Positions 36,579-59,000 of a stretch of 64,000 bases of DNA are shown here, piece by piece. The position numbers and the translations under genes were made by a program. Positions within the stretch are counted from its first letter, which is position 1; every line of letters starts with the position of its first letter. A model generated the notes under the pieces. The model made no database searches and was not told the origin of the DNA. It was given only the letters and a program-made list of their open reading frames with translations. Source of the DNA: Sphingorhabdus sp. EL138 (GTDB lineage: Bacteria; Pseudomonadota; Alphaproteobacteria; Sphingomonadales; Sphingomonadaceae); NCBI RefSeq assembly GCF_945882965.1, contig NZ_CAMCWY010000004.1, forward strand, positions 62,001 through 126,000, in the 5' to 3' direction.

Positions 36579-36589
36579 CCATTTTTAAC

Positions 36590-36681
36590 CGTCACCCTGA
36601 ACTTGTTTCAGGGTCTATTTATCAGCCTTGACCGGTGGTTTGTGAGGCTCGATGGACCCTGAAACAAGTTCAGGGTGACGG
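36590..36681. repeat. Family-1 palindromic repeat, copy 1
   Basis: Inverted arms CACCCTGAACTTGTTTCAGG and its complement bracket a loop of about 45 bases, between mccA and the MaoC gene. Other copies: 43061-43150, 51959-52039, 55575-55664 (inside cysS) and a fragment at 58189. On the opposite strand the arms can form a long hairpin that may act on mRNA stability within the operon. Confidence 0.85.
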
Positions 36682-38049: not shown

Positions 38050-38140
38050 ATGGGTCGCTCCATCGTAGGCTGGAGCCTATCTCGCCTTGCAGTCCAAACT
38101 GACAGACGTAGTGGGCCCCAGCCTGCGCTGGGGCGACGGG
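38050..38140. repeat. Family-2 palindromic repeat, copy 1
   Basis: Degenerate left arm (TCGCTCCATCGTAGGCTGGA) and intact right arm (CCCCAGCCTGCGCTGGGGCG) between the convergent CitE-like and acnA genes. Related copies: 41306-41342, 56954-57068, 58214-58320. Confidence 0.75.
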
Positions 38141-41223: not shown

Positions 41224-41305
41224 GCGTTTTCCTTATGAAATTCTATGGCGCGGCTGGGCGTCGCGAGAGCAGTTGTCTTGTCTATCATGTTTATTGTTCG
41301 CCTGC

Positions 41306-41342
41306 GAGGCGTGATGGGCCCCAGCATGAGCTGGGGCGACGG
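41306..41342. repeat. Family-2 repeat, single arm
   Basis: The segment GGGCCCCAGCATGAGCTGG, continuing GGCGACGGG, is one arm of the family-2 palindrome, with a decayed partner before it. It fills part of the crcB leader. Confidence 0.6.
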
Positions 41343-41423
41343 GGGGTGGGGTGTATGGATAGGCGGTCGCCTTCCAGTTTGCTTTGGCTGGCTTTTAATG
41401 TTCAGCGCCGCTACAGCGCGGCC

Positions 41424-43060: not shown

Positions 43061-43150
43061 CGTCACCCTGAGCTTGGTTCAGGGTCTATCGCGCCATCCG
43101 ACCGGCGGTTGCGGTCGAGAAATGGACCCTGAAACAAGTTCAGGGTGACG
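43061..43150. repeat. Family-1 palindromic repeat, copy 2
   Basis: Left arm CGTCACCCTGAGCTTGGTTC, right arm CCTGAAACAAGTTCAGGGTG, loop of about 45 bases, between the rlu and HAD genes. Its right end continues as a decaying tandem array. Confidence 0.85.
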
Positions 43151-51958: not shown

Positions 51959-52039
51959 CGTCACCCTGAACTTGTTTGACCGCCGGTCATTTCATTCCAG
52001 GGTCTTAATTAAGATGCTGAAACAAGTTCAGCATGATGG
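51959..52039. repeat. Family-1 palindromic repeat, copy 3, in the groES-groEL gap
   Basis: Arms CACCCTGAACTTGTTT and GCTGAAACAAGTTCAGC, but the left arm is split by about 20 bases (GACCGCCGGTCATTTCATTC) before CAGGGTC. It sits between the two chaperonin genes and could stall or cut the message between them. Confidence 0.75.
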
Positions 52040-52064: not shown

Positions 52065-53732
<1,668 letters not shown>

Positions 53733-55190: not shown

Positions 55191-56690
55191 TTAAACATCC
55201 AAGTTCCAATCCCAACCCAACGGGTCGCCGTCCATGACTTCAACGCCTTTGGCGATGAGGTCGTCACGGATCGCGTCGGACTTGGCGAAGTCTTTTGCAG
55301 CGCGGGCTTCCTTACGGGCGGTGAGCGCGGCTTCGATTTCGGCTTCGGTGATGATGGCGGCCTTGGGGCGGATACGGAGGTCTTGGCGGGTGAGGGTGAG
55401 GAGGTTGAGGCCGAGGACGGCATCCATATCGGCGAGAGCGGCGAGTTGGTGGGCAACGTCGATCTTTTTGAGGCCGACGATGTCTTCCAGCGCGGTGATA
55501 GCAATGGCGGTGTTGAGGTCGTCCGCGATTGCCGCGGCAAAGTCTTTCAGCGTGCCCGCCATGGGAGAAGAAAACGCACCCTGAACTTGTTTAAGGGTCC
55601 ATTTATCCGCTTCAACCGTCTGTTCGTTGGGCACGATGGATGCTGAAACAAGTTCAGCATGACGGGTCCTGAGAGTGCTGACCCCCATCACCATCCGCTT
55701 CAACCGCACAAACGCCGCCTGCAAACCCTCCCAGCTAAACTCCAACTCACTCCGATAATGCGCTTGCAGGCACATCAGGCGGTAGGCGAGGGGGTGGAAG
55801 CCTTTGTCGATCAGCAATTGCACGCGCAGGAATTCGCCCGATGATTTGCTCATCTTGCCCGACCGTTCGATCAGGAAATTATTGTGCATCCAAATGCGCG
55901 CGCCGCTGTCGGCGCAGCCTTCATGTGCTTGATTTTGTGCGATTTCATTGGGGTGGTGGATCTCGCGATGGTCAATGCCGCCAGTGTGGATGTCAAACGG
56001 CATGCCAAGCAGCGCCTTTGACATCACCGAGCATTCGAGATGCCAACCCGGCGCGCCTTTGCCCCATGGGCTGTCCCATTCCATTTGCCGCGTTTCGCCC
56101 GCTGGCGTCTTGCGCCAGATGGCAAAGTCAGCGGCGTGGCGTTTGCCCTCGACTTCATCGATGCGACCTTCACCTTCCTCGGTCTTGGCACGCGCCAATG
56201 CGCCATAATTCGCAACGGTCGAGGTATCAAAATACAGGCCGCTTTCCAGCTTATAACAATGCTTTTCGGCGATGCTTTTGGCATAATCGATCATCGCGGG
56301 GACGTAATCCGTGGCGATGGACCAATGTGCAGGTTGGCGGATGCTCAGCGCCTTGATGTCATCCCAATAGGCTTGCGTATAATGCTTTGCGATGTCCCAG
56401 ATCGACTGGGCTTTCTCCGCTGCCATCTTCTCCATCTTGTCCTCGCCTGCGTCGGCGTCGTCGGTCAGATGGCCAACATCGGTGATGTTGATGACATGGG
56501 TGAGCCTATAGCCCTTGTAGGACAGCACGCGGCCAAGCGTGTCGGCAAAAACATATGCGCGCATGTTGCCGATGTGCGGGTAGTTATAGACCGTCGGCCC
56601 GCAGGTATAGACCCGCGCCTCACCCTCATGAACGGGGGTGAAGGTTTCGAGTTGCCGGGTCAGGCTGTTGAAGAGTTTAAGCTCGGACAT
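55191..56690 (-). CDS. cysS: Cysteinyl-tRNA synthetase with an in-frame repeat insertion
   Basis: Charges tRNA-Cys. 499 residues, somewhat longer than usual (about 460-480). HIGN is at 39-42, zinc ligands Cys30, Cys220 and the HHPNE segment at 245-249, and KMSKS at 279-283. Residues about 341-375 (including RHAELVSASI and WTLKQVQGAF) are the translation of a family-1 palindromic repeat. It lies in the helical region after the KMSKS fold, where a surface loop could bear it; the frame is kept. ATG 56690 starts MSELKLFNSL; a 65-codon extension upstream is repeat-derived. Confidence 0.93.
   Translation of the reverse strand: MSELKLFNSLTRQLETFTPVHEGEARVYTCGPTVYNYPHIGNMRAYVFADTLGRVLSYKGYRLTHVINITDVGHLTDDADAGEDKMEKMAAEKAQSIWDIAKHYTQAYWDDIKALSIRQPAHWSIATDYVPAMIDYAKSIAEKHCYKLESGLYFDTSTVANYGALARAKTEEGEGRIDEVEGKRHAADFAIWRKTPAGETRQMEWDSPWGKGAPGWHLECSVMSKALLGMPFDIHTGGIDHREIHHPNEIAQNQAHEGCADSGARIWMHNNFLIERSGKMSKSSGEFLRVQLLIDKGFHPLAYRLMCLQAHYRSELEFSWEGLQAAFVRLKRMVMGVSTLRTRHAELVSASIVPNEQTVEADKWTLKQVQGAFSSPMAGTLKDFAAAIADDLNTAIAITALEDIVGLKKIDVAHQLAALADMDAVLGLNLLTLTRQDLRIRPKAAIITEAEIEAALTARKEARAAKDFAKSDAIRDDLIAKGVEVMDGDPLGWDWNLDV
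55575..55664. repeat. Family-1 palindromic repeat, copy 4, inside cysS
   Basis: Arms CACCCTGAACTTGTTTAAGG and GATGCTGAAACAAGTTCAGC, loop about 48 bases, as in the intergenic copies. It measures 90 bases (30 codons) and is open in the cysS frame. Confidence 0.85.
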
Positions 56691-56764: not shown

Positions 56765-56902
56765 CTCCCCATCGACTTGCGATGGGGAGAGGGACCGTTC
56801 GCGCAGCGAAGGGTGGAGGGGCCTTCTTAACGTTAAATGCCCCTCCGTCATTCGAAGCTAAAGGCTTCGACTGCCACCTCCCCATCGCAAGTCGATGGGG
56901 AG
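56765..56902. repeat. Family-3 palindromic element upstream of cysS
   Basis: CTCCCCATCGACTTGCGATG at the left is mirrored by CTCCCCATCGCAAGTCGATG at the right, each itself self-complementary, with inner TGGAGGGGCC / GCCCCTCCG. Lies in the 413-base gap between cysS and the desaturase gene, which holds two repeats and no recognisable gene. Confidence 0.8.
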
Positions 56903-56953: not shown

Positions 56954-57068
56954 CCCGTCGCACCAGCGCAGGCTGGTGCCTATCACGCCTTTCCGCTTCA
57001 AGCGTCGGGGGGGTGGGAAAACCGATAGACGCGATAGGTCCCAGCCTGCGCTGGGGCGACGGGGGTGG
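56954..57068. repeat. Family-2 palindromic repeat, copy 3
   Basis: Left arm CGTCGCACCAGCGCAGGCTG and right arm CCAGCCTGCGCTGGGGCGAC, with matching outer flanks AACACCCC / GGGGGTG, enclose about 60 bases. It begins 160 bases upstream of the convergent end of the desaturase gene. Confidence 0.8.
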
Positions 57069-57961: not shown

Positions 57962-58149
57962 ATCCATTTGCCCCGATAGGTCGCGATCAAGCCCAGAACC
58001 GTCCCGATAATCAGGCCAAATTGTATTGGCGACAACGCAAAGGGTGCATTCAAATCCAGCCTCAGCATCACCTGCGCAACCAATGGTGCAAGGAACGCGA
58101 TGCCGAAGAAAAAGGGCCCGAAAAAGAAGAGTGATTTAACTACTGACAT
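57958..58149 (-). CDS. Small two-helix membrane protein
   Basis: 63 residues: KSLFFFGPFFFGIAFLAPLVAQ, a short loop with MLRLDLNAPFALSP, and a second helix FGLIIGTVLGLIATYRGKW. It precedes the desaturase in an overlapping pair and may be a partner subunit or anchor. No family recognised. Confidence 0.7.
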   Translation of the reverse strand: MSVVKSLFFFGPFFFGIAFLAPLVAQVMLRLDLNAPFALSPIQFGLIIGTVLGLIATYRGKWI

Positions 58150-58188
58150 TGATTTTGAAGATGGTGGAAATGCGCGATTAGGTCAAGC

Positions 58189-58320
58189 CACCTCCAACCG
58201 TCACGCCGAACTTGTTCACGGCCACTTGTCCGTCGCACCAGCGCAGGCTGGTGCCTATCACGTGTGTTTGGATACACCGAAAGGCGAGATAGGCCCCAGC
58301 CTGCGCTGGGGAACGGGTTT
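58189..58320. repeat. Composite of a family-1 fragment and family-2 repeat, copy 4
   Basis: A truncated family-1 end (CGTCACGCCGAACTTGTTCA) runs straight into a family-2 unit with arms CGTCGCACCAGCGCAGGCTG and CCCCAGCCTGCGCTGGGGAA. It fills the gap between the small membrane protein and nitroreductase genes and suggests one element inserted into or beside another. Confidence 0.7.
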
Positions 58321-58328
58321 GGGGTTTG

Positions 58329-59000
58329 CTAAAACCCGTCCCAGCGGATCGCCTGGTCAATCTCCACGCGAGGGACATTGAAGTTGTTCACGGCGGCGTC
58401 TGCATCACGATAACCAATGGCCATGCCGCAGAAGAAGATGTGCGCATCATCAATGTTCAGTAATTCCCGCATTGTCATGCCGTACATCGCCCATATTTCC
58501 TGCGCGCAACTGTCAAGGCCCTCTTCGCGCAGCAACAGCATCACGGTTTGCAGCCACATGCCCATGTCGGACCATTGCGGCGGGCCCATGTATTTGGCCG
58601 TGTAGGTGAATAATTGCACCGGCGCACCAAAGCTGTCCCAGTTTTTCATCATCTGTGCAACGCGGCCAGCGCCATCTTCGCGCGCCAAGCCAAGCGCGTC
58701 GAACATTGCCTTGCCGACCCCGCGCCGTTGGTCTTCGTACCGGCCCTCAAGGCCCTTGGGATAGATGTCATATTCATGGCCATCGCCCATCGGCGCAGTG
58801 GTGGCTTTCGCCTTAATTTTGGCGGTGAGGTCAGCCAGCGGCGCGCCTGTGAGGATGACGGCATTCCAAGGCTGCGTATTGCCGCCCGAGGGCGAACGCT
58901 GCGCCTTGGCAAGCACGCGTTCGAGTATCGCCTGATCAACGGGTTTATCCAGAAATTGCCGGACAGAGCGGCGGCTGGCGACAGCTTCGGTGACGTTCAT
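58329..59000 (-). CDS. Nitroreductase family FMN protein
   Basis: 223 residues. FMN-binding SRRSVRQFLDKPV, PSGGNTQPWNAVIL and the late IGYRDADAAVNNFNVPRV segment match NfsB/PnbA-like nitroreductases, which reduce nitroaromatics or quinones with NAD(P)H. A perfect 18-base palindrome lies 18 bases upstream of the start. Confidence 0.9.
   Translation of the reverse strand: MNVTEAVASRRSVRQFLDKPVDQAILERVLAKAQRSPSGGNTQPWNAVILTGAPLADLTAKIKAKATTAPMGDGHEYDIYPKGLEGRYEDQRRGVGKAMFDALGLAREDGAGRVAQMMKNWDSFGAPVQLFTYTAKYMGPPQWSDMGMWLQTVMLLLREEGLDSCAQEIWAMYGMTMRELLNIDDAHIFFCGMAIGYRDADAAVNNFNVPRVEIDQAIRWDGF

Follow-up and report, generated by a model that had tools for sequence, protein, structure and literature searches.

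The window, the whole stretch of 64,000 nucleotides of Sphingorhabdus sp. EL138 DNA that was analyzed, carries a cysS gene with a palindromic repeat inserted in frame (Table 1). An upstream ATG of the cysS reading frame also lies at 56885, homologues start at the position of 56690, and a perfect 25-nt inverted repeat (CTCCCCATCGACTTGCGATGGGGAG) occupies 56765-56789 and 56878-56902, just upstream of the cysS start. The repeat within the gene, which the first-pass annotation had placed in frame after KMSKS, is indeed there: two CGTC-tagged REPs form a head-to-head dimer, 60 residues past the KMSKS motif, the class I synthetase signature. REP A has the full build of such a REP (CGTC tag, stem of 8-9 bp, loop of 4-5 nt, CCA-like tail), with its loop CTTGT followed by CCA, and the dimers elsewhere in the genome are built alike. 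REP A encodes RHAELVSAS, and the type-1 spacer, continued into the opening bases of REP B, encodes IVPNEQTVEADKW. REP B reads CTTAAACAAG in place of CTGAAACAAG; one of its stem bases and some of its tag are gone. The earlier description of arms and lengths as intact thus held for the open frame and the perfect stem of REP A, and failed for the decayed REP B and for the length, which is 90 nt; of the 54 tagged dimers gathered from every locus, cysS copies among them, 36 have the commonest length of 91 nt. The insert adds 30 residues in this species, within the predicted 30-35. Judged by its open frame and the conserved CysS around it, the insert is probably translated and tolerated by the enzyme.

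Table 1. The cysS gene, the parts of its inserted element and related dimers in the window.
Feature	Position	Strand	Remarks
Full dimer, same family (L032)	36589..36681	+	elsewhere in window
Second dimer, same family (L034)	43061..43150	+	elsewhere in window
Dimer, same family, rearranged or decayed (L035)	51959..52038	+	before ORF 52077-53732, presumably groEL-like
cysS (cysteine--tRNA ligase), 499 aa	55191..56690	-	PF01406 2.9e-80; TIGR00435 377.6 bits, cut-off 340
CGTC-tagged REP dimer, head-to-head	55575..55664	-	in-frame CysS residues 343-372, peptide RHAELVSASIVPNEQTVEADKWTLKQVQGA
REP B, partly decayed	55575..55600	-	CTTAAAC for CTGAAAC; GCG for GACG; encodes TLKQVQGA
Spacer, subfamily type 1	55601..55637	-	sequence CCATCGTGCC...AAATGGACC
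REP A	55638..55664	-	CGTC tag, perfect 8-bp stem ATGCTGAA/TTCAGCAT, 5-nt loop CTTGT, CC tail
KMSKS motif, residues 279-283	55842..55856	-	N-terminal to insert

The first-pass annotation had also noted the same element between genes, and the genome bears this out. A 156-bp stretch of cysS containing the element gave 44 matches at 31 separate places in the 2.36-Mb genome, itself included, with the best non-self match at E 1.3e-21; the 15-nt arm core, allowing up to two mismatches, matched 80 times as compared with 5 for the reversed control pattern. Chance similarity was ruled out by these counts. From the collected stretches we gathered 34 dimers, the cysS copy included, which are head-to-head and mostly intergenic; in eight cases an open reading frame spans the dimer and extends for no fewer than 20 codons beyond each end. 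Among all 34, a recognized protein family runs across the cysS copy alone. At a second spanning frame (L081) the element precedes a hydrolase domain, and the other six frames matched no Pfam family. At one end of 10 of the 33 other dimers stands TAGACCCTGAA, a stop in the cysS frame, where cysS has TGGACC. Among the full elements of this pool (CGTC...GACG) the length is divisible by three in 7 of 33, and none of the seven has an open frame; a present-day pool copy would therefore fit the frame only after a slight change of length. Another CGTC-tagged palindromic family (CCGTCGCACCAGCGCAGGCTGGTGCC / CCCAGCCTGCGCTGGGGCGACGGG) occurs in the window at 38052-38140, 41299-41343, 56954-57064 and 58230-58318, mostly as inverted pairs. 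The C-terminal half of a small open reading frame at 58100-58381 reads through repeat DNA (RHAELVHGHLSVAPAQAGAY...), and its tail is possibly made of REP sequence.

The element also occurs within other proteins of related genomes. Ten regions were chosen among the matches listed and seven open reading frames were scanned. In the AMP-binding enzyme of genome G002 (L195:733-2367) the element lies inside the domain, in TruB of G045 (L196:873-1913) it lies between domains, and both are read in the same frame as in cysS, so that the suggested search of other proteins did turn up similar peptides. In a Sir2 frame of a relative the element precedes the domain, and the remaining four scanned frames belong to no family.

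The RAYT transposase (PF01797) was not found in the genome of the window, and a search of 36 genomes gave a single partial match with a stop (G043), the control search being positive in 5 of 14 control genomes, E. coli included; the missing PF01797 in the own genome argues against RAYT mobilization of these REPs. Among 54 tagged dimers, equal flanks of 1-6 nt, the target-site duplication of a classical MITE, were not in excess, and no palindromic extension of the flanks was seen. On the outer side of the CGTC tags, roughly 12 nt are poor in G (6-16% G, tag strand) in 68 flanks of own-genome dimers (L031-L060, L081-L100), and this G-poverty was seen again in a set with related cysS copies; the flanks of the own-genome dimers may hint at a target preference.

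The relatives confirmed that the element of cysS is an insertion common to several lineages and not private to one. Our sample of 30 loci, 20 stretches and 80 named loci gave 116 distinct CysS proteins after identical ones were merged; L028, in which a stop ends the frame early, was excluded. These comprised 22 with a type-1 insert, 4 with a type-2 insert, 5 with a remnant, 71 with a plain linker, 8 with a GWT linker and 6 others (GDSWE), the last two classes being scored as non-insert; the GWT linkers may be decayed inserts. An insert or remnant was therefore counted in 31 of 116 proteins, under at least four genus names, the carriers being, by record title, Sphingorhabdus, Erythrobacter colymbi, E. 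oryzae, Altererythrobacter, Novosphingobium lentum, N. endophyticum and Novosphingobium sp. 32-60-15. It was absent from the other 85, and a gene-wide search of these cysS genes for a REP arm with up to three mismatches found none. The element thus lies in frame inside a conserved gene of which insert-free homologues exist. In the aligned relatives the region is a variable linker, which rules out an ancient conserved CysS domain. Neither of the two conditions that the first-pass annotation had named as fatal to its reading therefore holds. The best CysS match in four genomes of the same family (G047, G049, G054, G056) was only 36-42% identical, suggesting two CysS types within the family.

The site is the same in all carriers. 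Counted from the first residue of the RLKR motif, the element starts 14 residues on in every one of the 31 CysS with insert or remnant; five of the 22 type-1 proteins have a duplicated head at that point and the full element seven residues later, at 21. One of the inserts (L070, genome G027) is followed by a tandem GDVAGVR-like repeat. The 26 intact inserts (22 of type 1, 4 of type 2) all have both arms and all read HAEL first, a reading that was itself a criterion for classing an insert as intact; the opposite orientation (HPEL first) appeared in no CysS linker listed. Alignment of relatives, which had been proposed for finding the exact insertion edges, thus fixed the start, and the linkers of insert-free CysS were too divergent to give a clean empty site. 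On a CysS tree the presence or absence of the insert requires at least 11 changes, or 13 if the GWT linkers are inserts; the tree was a quick one, made with the linker left out and with 41 of 113 inner branches open. With at least 11 changes, a single gain implies many losses.

The arms of the insert are more conserved at synonymous sites than the rest of cysS. Across 14 CysS of different species, 1293 of 1448 same-residue codons in the arms were identical (89%), as compared with 0.587 (59%) in the rest of the gene, a test that takes in only inserts still recognizable. Synonymous identity was higher in the arms than in the rest of the gene in 91 of 91 pairs, and the best of 396 other 18-codon windows in cysS reached 0.736.

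Two spacer subfamilies occupy this one site. The type-2 insert, with the peptide RHAELVSAS-YLATSESK-TLKQVQGD and small variants, occurs in four Sphingorhabdus genomes (G028, G015, G039, G008), all with type-2-dominated pools (20-44 type-2 arms versus 0-4 type-1). Type-1 inserts occur in 11 genomes, and in 9 of the 11 the pool is type-1-dominated; the exceptions, G014 and G024, are type-2-dominated genomes of the same clade as those with type-2 inserts. These tests covered the 20 genomes with insert or remnant out of 34 scored, and the Fisher p of 0.011 for spacer type versus pool overstates independence because the type-2-dominated genomes form one clade. Two genes of differing subfamily, L010 and L011, agree at 1375 of 1482 aligned positions; L010 has a type-2 spacer, L011 a type-1 spacer and a 21-nt duplicate of the head. 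In the 105 nt downstream, L010 matches the type-1 L005 at 99 and L011 at 101 positions and the type-2 L007, L008 and L009 at 91, 92 and 82. Since its downstream flank is nearer the type-1 species, spacer and downstream flank differ in history.

Spacers can also be compared with the pools of their own genomes, which ranged from 2 to 24 copies; for the window's genome, 24 of 33 dimers were used, chosen by length. The spacer of the window's cysS (L001) agrees at 0.833 with that of L027, from another clade, and at no more than 0.714 with the 24 of its own pool. The spacers of L021 and L108 are alike (0.786), a type unseen in five other spacers of G046 (maximum 0.536). The best match was the cysS of another species for L001, L021, L156, L109, L115 and L128; for L115, whose pool comparison used 9 of 22 dimers, a repeat with all 22 left the maximum unchanged at 0.607. 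For L113, L107 and L025 the own pool holds spacers at least as close to that of cysS as those of other cysS inserts; across the whole set some margins were small.

The state of the insert does not depend in any general way on the size of the pool. Exact arms numbered 1-13 in the five remnant genomes versus 11-60 in 15 genomes with an intact insert. At one mismatch, the remnant genomes G017, G041, G018 and G037 have 15, 17, 10 and 15 arms, and genomes that kept the insert have 17 (G046), 13 (G050), 8 (that of L108) and 5 (that of L112); these last two genomes have no strict dimer besides the cysS copy. Large pools in the absence of a cysS insert were found in G016, G032 and G019.

A structure model was made with AlphaFold2 (36 rows, mean pLDDT 69, pTM 0.71), from which we used only the helix-loop-helix placement because the catalytic domain was modeled poorly. 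In the model a helix spans residues 320-350, residues 352-371 have pLDDT below 50, and a second helix spans 375-389; the first eight insert residues (343-350) fall inside the first helix. Mapped in this way, as the first-pass annotation had proposed, the insert appears to be mostly a low-confidence loop between two helices. The closest solved structures were the CysRS chains 3sp1, 8qhp and 1u0b. Neither Pfam nor NCBIfam recognized the insert peptide.

We lean slightly towards the view that these features go back to one old insertion in an ancestor of several genera, kept similar by recombination between copies and read as a near-neutral loop. A REPIN-like head-to-head dimer of CGTC-tagged REPs would have entered the linker between the two helices of CysS in the ancestor of several Sphingomonadaceae genera. 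It could have persisted because, at its usual length of 91 nt, one of its frames can stay open (RHAELVSAS...WTLKQVQGD) and because the linker tolerates added length; most likely its translation would yield a flexible loop on the surface that hardly affects the enzyme. Recombination with further copies, whether from the same genome or from relatives, would renew its arms, and such exchange may have swapped the spacer within one Sphingorhabdus clade; a donor copy for the exchange was not identified. In other lineages the insert would dwindle to remnants. A bolder proposal, which we put forward tentatively and think rather doubtful, is that the linker insert evolves in concert with the REP dimers of its genome, adopting the host subfamily in place as the surrounding gene evolves normally. 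If true, a stretch of an essential CysS would track a selfish DNA family and not its own gene lineage.

The main rival to old insertion with recombination is repeated independent insertion, in which a mobilizer of CGTC-tagged REPs would prefer the cysS site and each lineage would gain its insert from its own pool. The scattered distribution on the CysS tree and the near-identity of the arms at synonymous sites would both be expected from it, and the subfamily of the insert is often that of the host pool, as for the type-2 insert of G008 and for G050, whose cysS insert has the CTGGACC junction seen in its own pool. In addition, CTC AAA or CTC AAG, which could be a target, stands shortly before the element in most carriers, and insert-free genes mostly have CTG or TTG. 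Yet the same codon and the same orientation would be demanded every time, and the flanks of the window's own pool show G-poverty only and no CTC AAA or CTC AAG motif. Moreover, the L001-L027 and L021-L108 spacers are nearer each other than their own pools, and the remnants and GWT linkers resemble traces of an old insert. We therefore consider repeated insertion unlikely, though it is the alternative that deserves most attention.

Horizontal exchange of cysS segments between species, which would have spread one insert-bearing allele, seems to us improbable. Some individual genes look as if they had been exchanged: L070 clusters with four insert-free CysS at a support of 91, and its flanks agree with those of L001 at 120 of 129 nt before and 101 of 113 nt after the element, as compared with 853 of 1023 and 236 of 274 in the rest of the gene; L010 looks mosaic. 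Between genera, however, synonymous identity in 160 flanking columns was 0.570 versus 0.587 in the rest of the gene, so that the flanks are as diverged as the gene itself and such exchange would have acted within a genus at best. Selection on DNA or RNA, by which the hairpin would act in mRNA stability, pausing or protein binding and so hold the synonymous sites, is more improbable still. The predicted RNA fold of the insert (-33.7 kcal/mol, z -2.87; matched by 3 of 200 shuffles) and the persistence of good inserts in genomes as poor in REPs as those of L108 and L112 would suit it, but any such dimer is expected to fold well, five relatives keep only remnants, 85 of 116 CysS do without the insert, and in the window's own copy REP B has lost pairing. 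That the peptide is useful to CysS, for example in binding tRNA or a partner, is hardly credible: RHAELVSAS and LKQVQGD show little variation and EPWV[RQ] recurs in the inserts of L021, L108 and L156 (APWVR in L115) and in none of the pool translations listed, but the element gives similar peptides in TruB and the AMP-binding enzyme, the model gives the loop low confidence, and most relatives lack it.

Rickettsia palindromic elements, to which the first-pass annotation had compared the insert, were reportedly described by Ogata et al. in 2000 and 2002. In the sections covered of PMC3733652 and PMC10969869 they are palindromic repeats lying in frame in unrelated conserved proteins, and the cysS repeat resembles them in being in frame in a conserved protein. 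The likeness is apt, since RPE-4 and RPE-6 are placed in the CGTC-tagged superfamily in the covered part of Di Nocera et al. 2013 (PMC3733652). It has bounds as well: RPE-1, as described in the parts covered, is longer than the cysS element, and frequent insertion into many unrelated genes was not found among the dimers of the window's genome, of which 1 of 34 lies inside a recognized gene, the share reported for Rickettsia in those parts being much higher.

The closest likeness is to the CGTC-tagged REPs of Di Nocera et al. 2013, which, in the sections covered, lie inside genes to which they add 20-30 aa, TruB genes and tRNA synthetases of E. litoralis and S. alaskensis among them, and share a recB site in two Xanthomonas. 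The present elements agree with those REPs in CGTC tag, 8-bp stem, 5-nt loop, CCA-like tail and head-to-head dimers, in alphaproteobacterial hosts and in dimers inside genes; the published REPs have no transposase partner, and in the window's genome a RAYT (PF01797) was looked for and not found. The element class and its placement within genes, tRNA synthetases included, are thus already known. The same sections, the gene list (Additional file 3) apart, contain no mention of cysS, a cross-genus site, synonymous conservation or an in-place swap of spacers. The HAELVSAS string was not found in the papers searched, and searches on palindromic insertion in cysteinyl-tRNA synthetase and Sphingo gave nothing relevant among the matches listed. 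The cysS site common to several genera, the conservation of synonymous positions in the arms and the change of subfamily at that site appear to be new, not having been found in the papers searched, the gene list of PMC3733652 aside. Mobilization of CGTC-tagged REPs is left open in the covered part of that paper.

As with the REPIN unit of Bertels and Rainey 2011 (PMC3116915, part covered), the cysS element is an inverted REP pair with a variable spacer, and unlike RAYT REPINs it resides in a genome in which no RAYT (PF01797) was found. In the current REPIN model (2021; PMC8049555, part covered), a REPIN copied into a gene is assumed to destroy it. Here the length and sequence of a tRNA synthetase linker vary through repeat DNA, and one codon of an essential gene, which carries the element in many species and is found in type-1, type-2, remnant and empty states, provides a fixed address at which the gain, exchange and decay of such elements can be followed.
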